From a bacterium (GTDB lineage Bacteria; AUK180): 7,046 bases of DNA. This document shows, in pieces, positions 195-7,046 of this stretch. The DNA lies in assembly GCA_030622125.1 (NCBI GenBank), contig JAUXGM010000112.1:1-7046 (forward strand). Reading direction: 5' to 3'. The notes beneath the pieces are model-generated. The model had not been told where the DNA came from, did not search any database, and worked only from the letters and a program-made list of their open reading frames with translations. Numbering within the stretch: position 1 is the stretch's first letter; each line of letters opens with the position of its first letter. The position numbers and the translations under genes were made by a program.

Positions 195-200
195 TTGAAT

Positions 201-728
201 ATGCAAAATAAAATTATTAAGGGAAAAATTTGGATCTTGAGGGATAGTAGCGAAAAGGTAATTGATGATATCGATACCGATCAGATCTTTCATAATCGGT
301 ATCTGGCGATTACAGACATAAATGAGATGGGTAAATACACACTTGACAATCTCGAAGGGTGGAATGATTTTTCTCAAAAAGTAGAACCCGGAGATATTGT
401 AATTACGGGAAGGAATTTTGGTTCCGGTTCATCAAGGCAACAGGCGGTAGATTGCTTTAAATCCTTAAAGGTAAATGCGATTGTTGCCGAATCGTTTGGT
501 GCTATATACAAAAGAAATGCCATAAACAGCGGTTTTCCAATACTAATCTGGAAAGAAATAAAAGAAATGGTAGAAAGTGGAAAGATAAATGATCGGGATG
601 AGATTGAGATAAATTTGGAAACCGGAAGCATGAAAAATATAACAAAAGATATTGCCTGTGAAATGGAACCATTTTCAAATGTCCAGATGGAGATCTACGA
701 AGCAGGGAATATTTTTAAGAGCGAGTAA
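201..728 (+). CDS. leuD: 3-isopropylmalate dehydratase / homoaconitase-type small subunit (LeuD family)
   Basis: A 175-residue swivel-domain subunit of the aconitase superfamily. With a large Fe-S subunit (LeuC/HacA type) it would isomerise 2-isopropylmalate to 3-isopropylmalate in leucine synthesis, or act on a related tricarboxylate. Family motifs are all present: the DDIDTD motif (residues 22-27), the GRNFGSGSSR phosphate/substrate loop (70-79), and ESFGAIYKRNAINSG (97-111). The length of about 175 fits the short archaeal-type LeuD rather than the roughly 200-residue enteric form. The substrate-specificity loop reads YLAI (about 34-37), where characterised members have YLRT, YLVY or YLRM. 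Lack of Arg there argues against a homocitrate-type substrate, but this is inference. No large-subunit gene is visible nearby; it may lie left of the window or elsewhere. The gene has its own promoter (145-173) and SD (190-194). The next gene is convergent. The family is secure, the exact substrate is not. Confidence 0.9.
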   Translation: MQNKIIKGKIWILRDSSEKVIDDIDTDQIFHNRYLAITDINEMGKYTLDNLEGWNDFSQKVEPGDIVITGRNFGSGSSRQQAVDCFKSLKVNAIVAESFGAIYKRNAINSGFPILIWKEIKEMVESGKINDRDEIEINLETGSMKNITKDIACEMEPFSNVQMEIYEAGNIFKSE

Positions 729-1466: not shown

Positions 1467-1937
1467 CTATTGATTCGCTGTAAAATGCTTGATCTTAACC
1501 GTTTTTGCTTTAACGAATTTATCGTAGCCAACATAAGCAGAACCAGTCTCTACTTTAAAAGGAAAAGATACGTTAGGTTTTACATTTTCCGCTTTCCCAT
1601 TTTCACCACAATCAGCTCCATCCACATGAAACAACTTGTTACCAGCCTCATCATAGAATTCGAACCGAATGTCCCACGAATAGTCTTTGAAATCCTTGGC
1701 ACCAACCTTAACAGGATGATATATAGCTTTTCCTGTTATCTTCAAGTTGTCACCAGCTTCCTTGTCCATAGACGTTTTCTCCATTTTGCACTCCAGCACT
1801 TCAACCTTGGGTTCCGTAAGTGCCTTTTTTGCTACACTTTTTGTTCCCGGAAGTCCGGGTGTTGGCAGGCTTGCACAACCGCTCAACATTGCAATTACGA
1901 CCACTGCCACCATTGTTGCTGCAATTTTGTTCTTCAT
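1467..1937 (-). CDS. predicted outer-envelope lipoprotein with an FxLYD/LEA-like beta-sandwich
   Basis: A 156-residue lipoprotein of unknown role. The N-terminus has Lys residues, a hydrophobic core (about 6-17) and the lipobox LSGC with Cys21 as the lipidated residue. The +2 residue is Ala, which in Lol-type systems would mean outer-membrane sorting. A Pro/Gly linker (about 24-32) precedes a domain from about 44 to 153. That domain has the pattern LKITGKAIYHP, then WDIRFEFYDEAGNKL (88-102), then FPFKVETGSAY (125-135). This resembles FxLYD-type Ig-like beta-sandwich domains, by pattern only. The start was set at ATG 1937 because GGAGGT (1942-1947) lies 4 nt upstream; the longer ATG at 1949 overlaps that SD. 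The gene converges with the leuD-like gene and has no close operon partner. No clear promoter was found upstream. Confidence 0.75.
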   Translation of the reverse strand: MKNKIAATMVAVVVIAMLSGCASLPTPGLPGTKSVAKKALTEPKVEVLECKMEKTSMDKEAGDNLKITGKAIYHPVKVGAKDFKDYSWDIRFEFYDEAGNKLFHVDGADCGENGKAENVKPNVSFPFKVETGSAYVGYDKFVKAKTVKIKHFTANQ

Positions 1938-1941
1938 CACA

Positions 1942-1947
1942 ACCTCC
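1942..1947 (-). promoter_or_regulatory. Shine-Dalgarno site that fixes the lipoprotein start
   Basis: On the minus strand GGAGGT is followed by TGTG and then ATG (1937-1935). An in-frame ATG at 1949 sits at the 5' edge of this SD and would add four residues before the signal peptide, so it is rejected. Confidence 0.75.
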
Positions 1948-2015
1948 ATTTTTGGATGGTGTTTTTATTTTTTTGTTCTTTTCTCAATCAAATCCAACGA
2001 ATTTATCCCATCCGT

Positions 2016-2782: not shown

Positions 2783-4321
2783 TCATTTGTTTGCCTTCTT
2801 TAATTCTTCTACCTTTTTTTCAGCTTTCTCTAATAATTTTGAAAAATGCTCAGGATTTTCGTCAGTAAGTTTTTCTTGATAGGTTGCGTAATCCTCATAA
2901 GTAACATCAAATTTCTTGCAAATTTTTTCTATTTCTTCGCCCATCTTAATTGAGCCCATAGGGTCATCCTGGTATTTATTACTCAAATATATCCAATATG
3001 CAACAATCTCCACATATATCTCGTCACTCATCTTTCTTTTAGTTACTTCTTTGGCTGGGGCTTTTGTCCCATATGGAGGAGTATTTGAAGTTATTCCCAT
3101 TATCTTTTCCATAATCTCAGCAAAGTTTTTTTCTGTAAATGTCCTTTGTTTTTTTACTATCGTATCCCCTTCCTCACCCCACCATTTTTGAATTTTGTTT
3201 GTTTTAATCGATGCTGGCTTTGATGGGAATGCACCAGTTTTACAGATTGATTTTTGATTCTTTTTTACTATTACAGTTTTCTTTTTATTTATGTCTGAAA
3301 ACTCCACTTCACCATCAAGGACTGTTAATACTGTTGACCCATCATCTTTAACATTAAGGTCAAAATTAGTCCCATTTGTCTTCACTATGGCATTTTTCGT
3401 GAAGAAATAATGGTGTTTTCCACCTTCCCAAATGTCAACTTGTATATATCCTTTATAAAGATGAGATGAAATAACCCCATCAAGGATTTTTCTGGTTACA
3501 ATTTCTATCTCTGTGCCATCTGAACCAATAATTTTAGAATATTCTGTAATAAAGATTTCAACACAACCATCCTCAGAAACTATTTTTATTTTATCATTGG
3601 TTTTCGTAATCTTTGTCCCATTTGGAAGAATTTTTGTTTCGTCTTGGTATTCTGTGCTAAGAAACATATTCAGAGGAATTTTATCCCTTTTTGTACAGAA
3701 TTCCTTATGAAGTATAAATTTAAATTTAAGTGGACCTGTTATTCCATTATATGAAAGTGTTACCCATTTCTCGTTTTCAATGAACTTGAATTTCCGAAGA
3801 ATAATGGTTTCCATAGTGGGCTCCATAATTCCTGGAGGAGGGTTTTTAAAAATTTCGGGAATAGATAATTCCTTATTTATTATTGTTCCATATCCATGAA
3901 GGCTCTGGGTAAATTTTATCTTTTTTGAAGGATCGTAACTAAAAGTGAATAACCCATTTTCATCTATCTTCCCCTTTATGGCAATTACTAAATCCGATGG
4001 TACATATTTCCAATTAGTTTTTATTTCACCGAGGTGTACATAACCTGTTGGACTCCATTTTAATTCTACCATACCCTCAATACTTAAGTCTTCGTTAATA
4101 ATAAGGTCAATAAATTTCATTACAATTTTATGCCCTGAATATATTATAATATCATCTTCCCCCATAGGTACTTCAAAATGAGCACAACACCATTCAAACT
4201 GTCCATACCATCTTCCATGAAGGATTTCTCTTAATGAGTCCATTTTCTCTTCTGCAAAGATATTGAAACTTCCTGAAATTGAAATCACCAGAAGAAGAAA
4301 TAACATTAAATATCTTTTCAT
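2783..4321 (-). CDS. secreted FecR-domain protein of unknown function
   Basis: A 512-residue exported protein. Residues 1-23 are a signal peptide (basic start, core LMLFLLLVISISGSF, cleavage likely after IFA) with no lipobox Cys. Residues about 30-180 form a beta-rich region beginning GRWYGQFEW. Residues about 295-370 look like a FecR domain (PF04773 type): KNAIVKTNGTNFDLNV, then DDGSTVLTVLDGEVEFSD, then KKTVIVKKNQKS. From about 395 the protein is helical and charged, ending in a Lys/Glu-rich tail. FecR domains in the periplasm often sense or bind envelope ligands, but no sigma factor or TonB receptor gene adjoins this one, so classical iron signalling is not supported. SD AAGGAGGT (4327-4334) lies 5 nt before the ATG. 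It follows the zinc-ribbon operon after 106 nt. FecR assignment is by pattern. Confidence 0.75.
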   Translation of the reverse strand: MKRYLMLFLLLVISISGSFNIFAEEKMDSLREILHGRWYGQFEWCCAHFEVPMGEDDIIIYSGHKIVMKFIDLIINEDLSIEGMVELKWSPTGYVHLGEIKTNWKYVPSDLVIAIKGKIDENGLFTFSYDPSKKIKFTQSLHGYGTIINKELSIPEIFKNPPPGIMEPTMETIILRKFKFIENEKWVTLSYNGITGPLKFKFILHKEFCTKRDKIPLNMFLSTEYQDETKILPNGTKITKTNDKIKIVSEDGCVEIFITEYSKIIGSDGTEIEIVTRKILDGVISSHLYKGYIQVDIWEGGKHHYFFTKNAIVKTNGTNFDLNVKDDGSTVLTVLDGEVEFSDINKKKTVIVKKNQKSICKTGAFPSKPASIKTNKIQKWWGEEGDTIVKKQRTFTEKNFAEIMEKIMGITSNTPPYGTKAPAKEVTKRKMSDEIYVEIVAYWIYLSNKYQDDPMGSIKMGEEIEKICKKFDVTYEDYATYQEKLTDENPEHFSKLLEKAEKKVEELKKANK

Positions 4322-4326
4322 AAATT

Positions 4327-4334
4327 ACCTCCTT
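4327..4334 (-). promoter_or_regulatory. very strong Shine-Dalgarno site of the FecR-domain gene
   Basis: On the minus strand AAGGAGGT is followed by AATTT and then ATG. It closely matches the SD and spacer of the preceding zinc-ribbon gene (AGGAGGT AATT ATG at 5116-5103). Confidence 0.8.
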
Positions 4335-4346
4335 TCTTTACCGCCG

Positions 4347-4413
4347 GTTCGCCTAACTTACAGATATACGAAGTTAGCGAACGGAGTGGTTTATATAGTC
4401 CTTTCAATGCGGC
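4347..4413. repeat. hairpin repeat, copy 2 of the 1359-1402 family
   Basis: GTTCGC-C-TAACTT (4347-4359) pairs with AAGTTA-GCGAAC (4371-4382), a 12-bp stem with one bulged C and an 11-nt loop. It is followed by GCGAACGGAGT (4377-4387) and CAATGCGGC (4405-4413), the two words also found in order at 1359-1402. It fills the gap between the 225-residue zinc-ribbon gene and the FecR-domain gene. It has no T-tract and would sit in a shared mRNA, where it could act as an RNA stability or partial termination element. Confidence 0.65.
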
Positions 4414-4427
4414 ATTATATTTTTTAT

Positions 4428-5105
4428 TTATTCTAATTTCGTTCCGCATTCTCCGCAAAATTTTGTTCCCGCCGGATTTTCAGCCCCGCATTTCGGACAT
4501 TTTAACAATCCGAGCGGTGCTCCGCAATTTGCACAAAACTTTCCTTTTCCTGCCGGTTTTCCACATTTTGGGCAGATCGTTTGTTTACTTTCTATCTCTC
4601 CGGTAAAGACCTGTGTCTCTGCTGCTTTTTTATGAATATCATCAACCATCTTTCCCGCTTTTGCAGCTGCCACCTCAACATTCTCTCTTGGTGCACAGGT
4701 TACACATAGACCTTCCTGTTCATTCCAGCAATTTTCGCATACCCAATGGGTACACTTCGGACATCTTTTAAAATGTTCCTTTGTCTCGTTTTGTGCTTGC
4801 ATAAATGCCTTTTCATGTTCTTTATGCCATGCAGGAGACATTCCCTGAAACTTTTCCGCCAGTGCATCGGTTCCTCTACTGACACCGTAGCCAACATTGT
4901 ATTTTCCAGCTACGCGTGCTGCGGCGCCGAAAAGACCGCCGACAGTTTTTAGTAATCTTCCCTTTTTATAGGATTTAGATTCCATAAATCTTGTCTTGTA
5001 GCCCTCTTTACAATTGTCACAAAAGAATGTAAATTGAAAACCTGCCTCAGTGCTGTTATCGGCAAAATTATCTGAAAACCCAATCAAATTACCACCTTGT
5101 GCCAT
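4428..5105 (-). CDS. zinc-ribbon protein with a Gly/Ala-rich insertion, function unknown
   Basis: A 225-residue cytoplasmic protein with 16 Cys in eight CxxC pairs. The first pair, C29-C32, is followed by a long insert with a Gly/Ala-rich, mildly hydrophobic stretch (about 51-78, LLKTVGGLFGAAARVAG). A cluster then follows: C115-C118, C123-C126 and C134-C137, spaced like a treble-clef or cross-brace fold. An alpha-helical linker covers about 140-170. Two classic C-terminal ribbons end it: C178-C181 with C191-C194, and C203-C206 with C217-C220. There is no signal peptide. Such ribbons usually bind Zn and mediate protein or nucleic acid contacts. ATG 5105 is only 2 nt past the stop of the four-ribbon gene, and its SD is made of that gene's last codons, so coupling is likely. 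It resembles conserved hypothetical zinc-ribbon proteins; no function can be named. Confidence 0.85.
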   Translation of the reverse strand: MAQGGNLIGFSDNFADNSTEAGFQFTFFCDNCKEGYKTRFMESKSYKKGRLLKTVGGLFGAAARVAGKYNVGYGVSRGTDALAEKFQGMSPAWHKEHEKAFMQAQNETKEHFKRCPKCTHWVCENCWNEQEGLCVTCAPRENVEVAAAKAGKMVDDIHKKAAETQVFTGEIESKQTICPKCGKPAGKGKFCANCGAPLGLLKCPKCGAENPAGTKFCGECGTKLE

Positions 5106-5107
5106 AA

Positions 5108-5440
5108 TTACCTCCTATATTTTAATGGTTTCCTACATTTTATACATTTATCTCCGATCGGCGGCTGCTCTGTCTTACATTTCGGACAGACAACGACCAA
5201 TCGTTCATCGCATTTATCACAGTAATCCCCAAAGAATGTTTTTTCTCCGCAAAAGGGACAGGTAATCTCCAATTTTAATCCGCACCCGGGGCATACCTTA
5301 TAATCCTTCTTTATCGGTTCATGACATTTCGGACATCGCAGTGAACCAAGCGGATTGACCTTTCCACAGTATGGACAAAGATTTGAATCCGCATCAATCA
5401 ACTTACCACAATAACGGCAGGGATGTTTATATCCTACCAT
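5108..5440 (-). CDS. four-zinc-ribbon protein, function unknown
   Basis: A 110-residue protein that is almost entirely zinc ribbons: 16 Cys in eight evenly spaced pairs, C8-C11/C22-C25, C36-C39/C50-C53, C61-C64/C74-C77 and C85-C88/C99-C102. Each ribbon is CxxC, 10, 10, 9 and 10 residues, CxxC, so the protein looks like four copies of one unit. Most pairs have Pro after the first Cys (CPYC, CPKC, CPGC, CPFC). There is no catalytic, membrane or export signal. The start was set at ATG 5440, since AGGAGG (5447-5452) lies 6 nt upstream; the longer ATG at 5461 is upstream of this SD and inside the preceding gene. It starts 2 nt after the stop of the PH-like gene. Its own C-terminal Arg-Arg codons, AGG AGG, form the SD of the next gene. 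It is probably an adaptor or scaffold; that is inference. Confidence 0.85.
   Translation of the reverse strand: MVGYKHPCRYCGKLIDADSNLCPYCGKVNPLGSLRCPKCHEPIKKDYKVCPGCGLKLEITCPFCGEKTFFGDYCDKCDERLVVVCPKCKTEQPPIGDKCIKCRKPLKYRR
5110..5116 (-). promoter_or_regulatory. Shine-Dalgarno overlapping the upstream stop codon
   Basis: AGGAGGT on the minus strand is made from the last two codons (AGG AGG) plus the first base of the TAA stop of the four-ribbon gene. The next gene's ATG follows 4 nt later (5105-5103). This arrangement favours translational coupling. Confidence 0.8.
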
Positions 5441-5442
5441 AT

Positions 5443-6813
5443 TTAGCCTCCTTTTTTCCATTTTTCATTATCATCTCTTGAATTAATATTGAATTTTAAA
5501 AGATTCTTCACATCATTTTCCCACTGCTCTTCACTACCGTGGATAATCCTTCCGATAAACAATTTCCTTAATAATCTAAGTGACGGTATTTTTTCTATCG
5601 CAAATTGGTATTTTTCATATCTCGGTTCATTTATTTTTTCATCTGAAAGATAAATCGGTTCTCTTCTGAAATTTATCTCTATCATACATCTATTTATTGT
5701 TTTAATAAACTCATTCGCTCTCTTATGAAGATCATCGATATTCTTAATATTTGAATATTTATCCCGTTCCCCCATTCTAAAAAAATAGGTTGCCTTTCCC
5801 TTTACGACCTCTTCTTCTGATATCGTGCCTGCTTCCATTGCAAAAGCATTTCCATATTCCTTTGAGGCAATGTCATATATCGGTATCAAGAACCATATAT
5901 ATTCACCGGTTAGATCCCCTAATAATCCTCTTTTAAAGCCGATACATAGTTTACTTTTTTGAGAAATTGATTTTAGATGATTGTATTCATCTTTTATTCC
6001 TGCAAGTTCAAGACGCTTTTCCAATTCTCCCCATATCTTTGGAGAGATCTTATCTATATCAGTTTTTTTCGCCGCCATTCCTTCCTTCATCAATCTTGAA
6101 ACCCTTCTTATTATCAATGGTCCTTCCTTTGGTAAAAGTTCCTTGATCGTTGATTGCAGTTCTATATTAAGTTCATTTATCACATCCGATAATGTATGGA
6201 CAACCGAATCGTATTTATAACCCATCATTGAAAAAGTATATTTATCGCCGAACTCACAGGTGATATTTAGTTCATAATTCTCAGAATTTATATTTGAAAT
6301 ATATGAGTATGGAATTCTTTTTATCTCACTTTTTTCCGGAATGATCACAAGCCCCGTATCAAGCAGACGAAGTTCACAAATCTCATTTTTAATTATTTCT
6401 TTTCCCTCATTGGTAGAGGTAACCGTTGCCTTGATCCCGCTTTTTCGAATTGATTCATTTATGAGCAGATCCTTTATAAGAATCTCATTTCTTAATTTAA
6501 AAAGTATTCTCAAAAAATCTTCATACTTATAACCGAGATCGTAGATGGTCAGGATCTCCTTTGTTTTGAATTGAATATGTAATCGATAATCATCTCCCCA
6601 TATTTTAAAGATATCTCTGTATGAAATTAGGAGAGTTTCGCTAAATTTCGGAATAATAAAAACGGCATCTTCGGTAAGTTGCAGATTGCCCTGCCCCTTA
6701 TCAAGTTCTGTGCCTTCTTCATCGGAAAGGGTAAAACTCATCTTTGCTTCAAAGATAATTATAATTTCTTCATCATTCGAATTCTTTTCCTGTTCTTCAT
6801 CATCTGAATCCAT
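5443..6813 (-). CDS. cytoplasmic protein with two tandem PH-like repeats, function unknown
   Basis: A 456-residue soluble protein. After an acidic N-terminus (DSDDEEQEKNSNDEE) come two homologous units, about 41-112 and 144-216. They share IIP near the start (54-56 and 157-159), then SE, I-Y, Y-L-I, GYKY (94-97 and 198-201) and a final NE. The beta-strand pattern closed by a helix suggests PH-like folds, as in bacterial PH-domain proteins; this is a fold guess. The C-terminal half (about 230-440) is unrelated and carries GLLGDLTGEYIWFLIPIY (296-313) and NAFAMEAGT (322-330). No membrane segment or signal is seen. ATG 6813 is chosen because AGGA (6821-6824) lies 7 nt upstream; GTG 6819 is too close to it. 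It is the first gene of a coupled three-gene operon with its own promoter (6844-6872). Confidence 0.75.
   Translation of the reverse strand: MDSDDEEQEKNSNDEEIIIIFEAKMSFTLSDEEGTELDKGQGNLQLTEDAVFIIPKFSETLLISYRDIFKIWGDDYRLHIQFKTKEILTIYDLGYKYEDFLRILFKLRNEILIKDLLINESIRKSGIKATVTSTNEGKEIIKNEICELRLLDTGLVIIPEKSEIKRIPYSYISNINSENYELNITCEFGDKYTFSMMGYKYDSVVHTLSDVINELNIELQSTIKELLPKEGPLIIRRVSRLMKEGMAAKKTDIDKISPKIWGELEKRLELAGIKDEYNHLKSISQKSKLCIGFKRGLLGDLTGEYIWFLIPIYDIASKEYGNAFAMEAGTISEEEVVKGKATYFFRMGERDKYSNIKNIDDLHKRANEFIKTINRCMIEINFRREPIYLSDEKINEPRYEKYQFAIEKIPSLRLLRKLFIGRIIHGSEEQWENDVKNLLKFNINSRDDNEKWKKGG
5447..5452 (-). promoter_or_regulatory. Shine-Dalgarno inside the upstream gene's last codons
   Basis: AGGAGG on the minus strand is drawn from the Lys-Gly-Gly codons just before the TAA stop (5445-5443) of the PH-like gene. 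ATG 5440 follows after 6 nt. It decides against the longer start at 5461. Confidence 0.8.
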
Positions 6814-6820
6814 TTTCACT

Positions 6821-6824
6821 TCCT
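6821..6824 (-). promoter_or_regulatory. Shine-Dalgarno site of the PH-like gene
   Basis: AGGA, within AAAAGGA on the minus strand, lies 7 nt before ATG 6813 and only 1 nt before an in-frame GTG at 6819. The ATG is therefore the better start. This SD is weaker than those of the two downstream genes. Confidence 0.6.
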
Positions 6825-6843
6825 TTTAAGGTTTCTTTATTGT

Positions 6844-6872
6844 ATTATATAAAAAAGAATAGAAAAATTCAA
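6844..6872 (-). promoter_or_regulatory. sigma-70-type promoter of the zinc-ribbon operon
   Basis: On the minus strand a -35 box TTGAAT (6872-6867) and a perfect -10 box TATAAT (6849-6844) are 17 nt apart. Transcription would start near 6837, leaving a leader of about 24 nt before ATG 6813. The -35 box includes the TGA stop codon of the preceding peptidase gene. The same box types and spacing occur in the leuD-like promoter (TTGATT, 17 nt, TATAAT). Confidence 0.65.
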
Positions 6873-7046
6873 GTTCTTTTTCTCTTTCCGACCCAGCCTC
6901 TCTTATGATAGAACATATCATTGATTGCACCTTTTAAGATAGCGAATGTGTCCTGGCGGTAGATCTTTTTCAAAATGTTGTATAATTTTTTATGCCTTGC
7001 AAGCATATTTCCCGGATTTTCAAAAAAATACTCACTCACAACAGCA
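6869..7046 (-). CDS. M90-family (MtfA-like) zinc metallopeptidase, C-terminal fragment
   Basis: Only the last 58 residues are in the window; the gene runs off the right edge. The frame was read by hand and ends in TGA at 6871-6869. It begins AVVSEYFFENPGNML, followed by LYNILKKIYRQD and a basic tail ending KRKRT. The pattern AVxSEyFFE-P, then LY-xLxxxYRQD, is the hallmark C-terminal part of the MtfA / glucose-regulated metallopeptidase family (PF06167, MEROPS M90). In enterics MtfA is a cytosolic Zn peptidase that binds the repressor Mlc. The HExxH zinc site lies further upstream, outside the window, so activity cannot be judged. The gene ends 55 nt before the PH-like gene on the same strand and may share its transcript. 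The role here need not match that in enterics. Confidence 0.7.
   Translation of the reverse strand, partial: AVVSEYFFENPGNMLARHKKLYNILKKIYRQDTFAILKGAINDMFYHKRGWVGKRKRT

Follow-up and report, generated by a model that had tools for sequence, protein, structure and literature searches.

The nearest working analogy to the locus described here is pspA-ydjGHI of Bacillus subtilis, a small phage-shock/SPFH operon that comprises the zinc-ribbon protein YdjG and a membrane-side assembly and is linked to envelope stress (PMC8581546, PMC9239133). A bPH-like domain also occurs in one archaeal neighbour of Psp (PMC9239133). The window, the whole stretch of DNA that was analysed, is an entire contig of 7046 bases (G000:C99) from a draft genome of 2.08 Mb in 192 contigs. 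Its minus strand carries, in order of transcription, the tail of an M90 peptidase gene, the genes PH, ZR4, and ZR225, and the gene of a FecR-type exported protein. The analogy of the three middle genes to pspA-ydjGHI is that of a small operon in which a zinc-ribbon protein and a cytoplasmic assembly are tied to the membrane. In contrast, the unit contains no PspA or SPFH protein, and Pfam scans link none of PH, ZR4, and ZR225 to the Psp proteins. PspA/ESCRT-III and SPFH are also absent from the window proteins and from the top 25 recurrent families of 85 scanned neighbours. With no gene for PspA or SPFH among them, the unit is not a phage-shock operon.

Other known systems share single folds with the locus. 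The eukaryotic tandem-PH proteins (FACT Pob3/Spt16, BBS5, and Dok7 PH-PTB) have two successive PH folds, as does PH, but the similarity is per domain, the inter-domain arrangement differs, and the C-terminal domain of PH remains unaligned. FYVE, RING, and treble-clef fingers, including Prok-RING_2, have the same eight-ligand order as ZR225, C-C...C-C-x4-C-[CD]...C-[CD], whereas ZR225 has a helical insert of about 80 residues between ligand pairs 1 and 2 and scores below the cut-off. ZR4 and the C-terminus of ZR225 are built of the same ribbons as the DZR (PF12773) proteins, although DZR is a generic fold and gives them no functional family. FecR/anti-sigma transmembrane signalling is similar in that genes for FecR-domain proteins repeatedly lie within the operon or next to it. 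It differs in that the module has neither an ECF sigma factor nor a TonB receptor (none was found among the window ORFs with Pfam and NCBIfam), most loci lack FecR, and the window domain is degenerate. No paper on the PH-ZR4-ZR225 gene set was found in the open-access literature. Judged against Pfam, NCBIfam, PDB, PADLOC, and open-access papers, the unit is apparently undescribed, and a prior name is possible.

Gene coupling and protein composition

All five genes are consecutive reading frames on the minus strand, as the sequence-only reading had stated, and the tight spacing that it noted in the middle of the set is equally real. The PH stop (5443-5445) and the ZR4 ATG (5440) are separated by 2 nt, as are the ZR4 stop (5108-5110) and the ZR225 ATG (5105). 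A strong Shine-Dalgarno sequence lies ahead of ZR4 and of ZR225, each overlapping the preceding stop. Judged from these junctions, PH, ZR4, and ZR225 are translationally coupled in the window. The FecR-type gene begins 106 nt downstream of ZR225 and, because of this gap, is not coupled to it. An RNA family scan and promoter and terminator scans gave nothing beyond chance. Elsewhere, the window encodes a small subunit of the LeuD/HacB type whose N-terminus is unusual (195-728, plus strand; 129 bits against the LEUD_arch cut-off of 109, far under the equivalog cut-offs) and a putative lipoprotein of 160 aa without a family match in Pfam or NCBIfam (1467-1949, minus strand).

PH, the first core gene (5443..6813, minus strand), is supported by its ORF, its Shine-Dalgarno sequence, an AlphaFold2 model, fold matches, and relatives in 50+ loci. 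It starts at the ATG at 6813, which has its own Shine-Dalgarno sequence, and encodes 456 aa; an alternative frame from the GTG at 6819 gives 458 aa. The AlphaFold2 model, built from a 51-sequence alignment (pLDDT 91.2, pTM 0.88), comprises two seven-strand-plus-helix units and a C-terminal alpha/beta domain that is also confident. In the 458-aa frame, the first PH fold covers residues 23-117 (6469..6753, minus strand; VIA-align Z up to 13.6 over 18-120) and the second residues 124-228 (6136..6450, minus strand; Z up to 12.6 over 111-219), both placed by the secondary structure of the model. The two units match solved PH/PTB/FERM-F3 domains at Z 11.7-13.6, which bears out the two PH-like repeats first seen in the sequence. 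The C-terminal domain, residues 290-458 (5446..5952, minus strand), is supported by the family alignment and by the confident model, and contains most of the invariant residues among relatives, namely G294, K296, E329, Y345, F384, Y404, R418, G423, and H427. Pfam has no family for PH, nor does PDB contain a relative by sequence. As a single query against species genomes it found no relatives; these were recovered with the ZR225 query. The PH proteins of L005, L032, L035, and L045 have an additional C-terminal domain of about 230 residues, for which no Pfam match was found in L032, the one scanned.

ZR4 (5108..5440, minus strand) is a protein of 110 aa with four zinc ribbons and 16 Cys in eight CxxC pairs. 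It matches the Pfam double zinc ribbon DZR (PF12773) at 59 bits (E 5e-16), well over the cut-off of 27.3. Among 43 relatives, twelve of its Cys are invariant and four are kept in 42. ZR225 (4428..5105, minus strand), identified by its ORF, Pfam, the species-genome scan, and Cys conservation, has 225 aa and is the most conserved component. The count of 16 Cys in each of the two proteins agrees with the earlier reading, and all of those in ZR4 and 14 of the 16 in ZR225 (66 relatives) are invariant or nearly so. The C-terminal part of ZR225, C178-C220 (4446..4574, minus strand), is a double zinc ribbon at 36.7 bits against the same PF12773 cut-off of 27.3 (E 4.8e-9), with its Cys invariant in 66 of 66 relatives.

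The N-terminal part of ZR225 (4695..5021, minus strand) comprises a putative zinc site of eight ligands with a helical insert, recognised from column counts and from weak Prok-RING_2 and FYVE-like matches. Its pattern is C29-x2-C32-x82-C115-x2-C118-x4-C123-x2-[C/D]126-x7-C134-x2-[C/D/E]137. In all 66 relatives, six of these ligands are invariant Cys and the other two are Cys or Asp, rarely Glu. RING and FYVE fingers arrange their ligands in this same cross-brace order. Weak matches to Pfam Prok-RING_2 are present in 23 of the 66 members, the window protein scores under its curated cut-off, and a model of ZR225 weakly matches the FYVE-type fingers 2yqm, 5x6t, and 2zet (Z 2.5-3.0). The pattern and the model are thus suggestive of, rather than conclusive for, a RING/FYVE-like cross-brace finger. 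A whole-fold match for ZR225 was rejected, as the best Foldseek E was 0.35 and structural alignments stayed under Z 4.

Distribution and inheritance of the core unit

Family profiles of PH, ZR4, and ZR225 were searched across 386 related genomes. PH occurs in five of them, and ZR4 and ZR225 occur in the same five. ZR225 is additionally present in two genomes as distant, isolated genes, and the chance of all five PH genomes falling within this seven-genome set is about 3e-10. The proposal that the families of 456, 110, and 225 residues occur together is thereby strongly supported. ZR225-like proteins of remote similarity (E about 1e-40), with neither ZR4 nor PH, are encoded in L155 (G369, 6987-7613) and L156 (G450, 6692-7342), and that of G369 directly follows a CsgG-family gene.

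The species-genome scan yields at least 137 relatives of ZR225, which span about 20 bacterial and archaeal phyla; 80 of these were examined, and they show 58-75% identity. With taxon names as in the MAG records, the bacterial hosts are Bacillota, Actinomycetota, Chloroflexota, Elusimicrobiota, Aminicenantes, Fermentibacteria, Stahlbacteria, Patescibacteria, Margulisbacteria, Acidobacteriota, and Coprothermobacterota. The archaeal hosts are Methanomassiliicoccales and other Thermoplasmatota, Bathyarchaeota, Nitrososphaera, Altiarchaeota, and Ainarchaeum. ZR4 lies directly upstream of ZR225 in 73 of 79 loci, and PH lies within 5 kb of ZR225 in 51 of the 67 loci with sufficient flank. Two of the 16 loci without a nearby PH have it on a different contig. 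Eleven others (L033, L044, L051, L053, L056, L058, L064, L066, L069, L078, and L083) belong to Elusimicrobiota or to bins that mostly group there in the ZR225 tree, and have no PH in the genome; they keep ZR225, mostly with ZR4. In L033, L066, and L069, a membrane protein of 176-198 aa is encoded directly upstream, in the place of PH. Since the Elusimicrobiota clade keeps the pair without PH, PH is not essential to whatever ZR4-ZR225 does.

The pairwise divergences of PH, ZR4, and ZR225 are correlated (Mantel r 0.33, 0.61, and 0.57; reached in 0 of 5000 permutations). The trees only loosely track taxonomy. One archaeal PH, from Thermoplasmata, groups with those of Stahlbacteria, Aminicenantes, and Fermentibacteria, and G003, a member of the window's own family that also carries the unit, has the most divergent PH of all. 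This mismatch between trees and taxonomy suggests that PH-ZR4-ZR225 has repeatedly been transferred as a block, with bin contamination possible in single cases. L009 (Stahlbacteria) and L032/L035 (Saccharicenans/Aminicenantes) have a near-identical module and the same FecR gene, which may reflect either recent cross-phylum transfer or mixed bins. Carriage on mobile elements was rejected, as searches of plasmids, phages, and IMG/VR viral contigs gave only generic-ribbon matches. In L151 (G242, a one-contig genome), the module is flanked by transposase-like fragments that share a repeated N-terminal peptide.

Taken together, PH, ZR4, and ZR225 almost certainly work together as one unit. The five-gene set had been put forward as an undescribed cassette, and this stands for the three core genes, which share the same five of 386 genomes and are adjacent in most of the 80 loci. 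It does not stand for M90, which is unlinked elsewhere, and FecR is a recurring accessory outside the core.

Envelope partners

The accessory protein of the window (2783..4321, minus strand), defined by its ORF, Pfam, and homology, has 512 aa and comprises a degenerate FecR domain and a C-terminal helical domain. Its N-terminus has a signal-like hydrophobic stretch, as read from the sequence. The FecR-like stretch, residues 287-340 (3302..3463, minus strand), reaches 15.5 bits against PF04773 (E 0.024), below the cut-off of 24. Residues 231-400 are similar (E 1e-7 to 2e-5) to proteins with a genuine FecR domain, and the region is homologous to the operon FecR proteins of L062, L017, L032, and L009, which pass PF04773. 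Its description as a FecR-domain protein is upheld by homology but weakened by the degenerate, sub-threshold domain. The C-terminal domain, residues 426-512 (2786..3046, minus strand), is related to the lipoprotein of L011 that is encoded between PH and ZR4 (phmmer E 5e-6). Homologous FecR-domain genes also lie between PH and ZR4 in L009, L017, L032/L035, and L062. The expected FecR neighbour therefore occurs inside the operon in these loci, but is absent from most others. A further family, c3, has an N-terminal domain of about 300 residues, mostly with a C-terminal FecR domain. Among the fetched loci, c3 genes occur only in or adjoining the operon (L008, L009, L011, L017, L032/L035, L045, and L062). 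The c3-type FecR proteins have no signal peptide, which counts against the proposed envelope reading.

Lipoproteins and fusions of ZR4 are the other envelope partners. CsgG/FlgO-type lipoprotein genes lie directly upstream of PH in L019, L020, L026, L054, L059, and L073, and between PH and ZR4 in G242; a full CsgG is found downstream of ZR225 in L051 and L058. In L008, L025, L028, L029, and L036 (Patescibacteria, Altiarchaeota), a fusion protein runs from a signal peptide through PPC-like repeats and a transmembrane segment to ZR4, which is the C-terminal and presumably cytoplasmic end of these exported proteins. In L012 (Ainarchaeum), ZR4 follows a signal peptide and a transmembrane anchor alone. 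Over all loci, N-terminal hydrophobic segments are not significantly more frequent in genes between PH and ZR4 (4/15) than in others (156/743). As this blanket test is negative, the envelope link rests on the named families and the fusions, and these accessory families were chosen after inspection of the loci. Many loci have no neighbouring envelope partner. The unit is present in monoderms, diderms, and archaea, and so cannot depend on an outer membrane.

Competing explanations and proposed role

The M90 (MtfA-type) gene is present in the window as a 3' tail cut by the contig end (6869..7045, minus strand), which is a neighbour outside the unit. Its last 58 codons are recognised by PF06167 (E 4.3e-7, profile positions 214-243); the catalytic part lies outside the window. 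A five-gene cassette linking FecR envelope sensing to a regulated M90 peptidase would fit the shared strand and close spacing in this window, as well as the FecR partners in a minority of loci. A genome-wide search with PF06167, however, found no M90 gene in 48 of 50 module-bearing genomes, and in the other two none was seen beside the module. M90 was accordingly rejected as a member of the unit and is a chance neighbour. The expected recurrence of M90 beside the module fails, the tie between envelope sensing and a regulated peptidase is left unsupported, and the five-gene cassette is extremely improbable.

In a PDB sequence search, single ribbons come closest to those of eL40, DNA polymerase D, and the like, which raises the possibility of a nucleic-acid, ribosome, or transcription-associated factor. 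The ribbons would then bind nucleic acid (RNA or DNA) or RNA polymerase, and the PH pair would serve as a chromatin- or nucleoid-like binding unit, as in FACT; the top Foldseek matches of the PH model are indeed the tandem PH domains of Pob3/Spt16/SSRP1. However, these matches hold per domain, and a FACT-like tandem arrangement was rejected (rmsd about 11 A over 229 columns). Six loci have ZR4 joined to exported and transmembrane regions, and the scanned neighbours are not enriched for nucleic-acid functions, so that this explanation is unlikely. Protein modification or quality control would make ZR225 a RING-like, ligase-type adaptor whose ribbons bind a ubiquitin-like or substrate protein. 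The cross-brace ligand pattern kept in 66/66 relatives, the weak Prok-RING_2 matches in 23/66, and a weak fold likeness between the C-terminal ribbon and the NZF fingers that bind ubiquitin are in line with it. In contrast, the fold matches stay under Z 4, the Prok-RING_2 score of the window protein is below the curated cut-off, and no ubiquitin-like, E1/E2, or JAB neighbour recurs, with a RadC-like JAB in one scanned neighbour; this role is quite improbable. A defence or conflict system spread by transfer would account for the very patchy distribution (5/386 genomes) and for close relatives in unrelated phyla. It is nevertheless very improbable, as PADLOC models do not match the four proteins searched at E 0.1, the scanned neighbours lack recurring defence genes, and the unit is absent from plasmids, phages, and viral contigs. 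ZR225 also evolves slowly, at 58-75% identity across domains, which sets it apart from the rapidly changing effectors of defence systems.

The reading proposed here, a tentative one that could well prove wrong, is that PH-ZR4-ZR225 is a cytoplasmic, membrane-side scaffold or adaptor with exchangeable envelope partners. We infer complex formation, a position on the membrane side, and a sensing or scaffolding role. The exported ZR4 fusions and the lipoprotein partners make the earlier scaffold or interaction reading more specific. The three genes would be inherited, and often exchanged between lineages, as one functional block. The tandem-PH protein may act as a hub that binds a membrane surface or a partner. 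ZR225, with its eight-ligand RING/FYVE-like site and two ribbons, and ZR4, with its four ribbons, would act as protein-binding arms stiffened by zinc. The unit would couple to exchangeable envelope proteins, namely a FecR-domain protein, a CsgG/FlgO-type lipoprotein, or an exported PPC-domain-TM-ZR4 fusion, and would probably report or organise the state of these partners. The proposed mechanism includes neither an enzyme activity nor a role for M90. A broader extension, which is decidedly doubtful, is that the unit is an undescribed membrane-surface recognition system of bacteria and archaea and a prokaryotic counterpart of the eukaryotic PH/FYVE effector complexes. Its tandem-PH hub and FYVE/RING-like zinc adaptor would read the state of the membrane or envelope via interchangeable exported sensors.

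Apart from generic ribbons, Pfam, NCBIfam, PDB, and PADLOC offer no named family for the proteins of the unit. These proteins join folds, the tandem PH and a possible FYVE/RING-like finger, that are mostly considered in the context of membrane signalling in eukaryotes. The module yields three family profiles, and the question that it raises is which envelope signal or structure the exchangeable partners bring. The unit spans Methanomassiliicoccales, Bathyarchaeota, Patescibacteria, Elusimicrobiota, and Actinomycetota, with ZR225 conserved throughout at the identities given above, which implies a definite, portable function.
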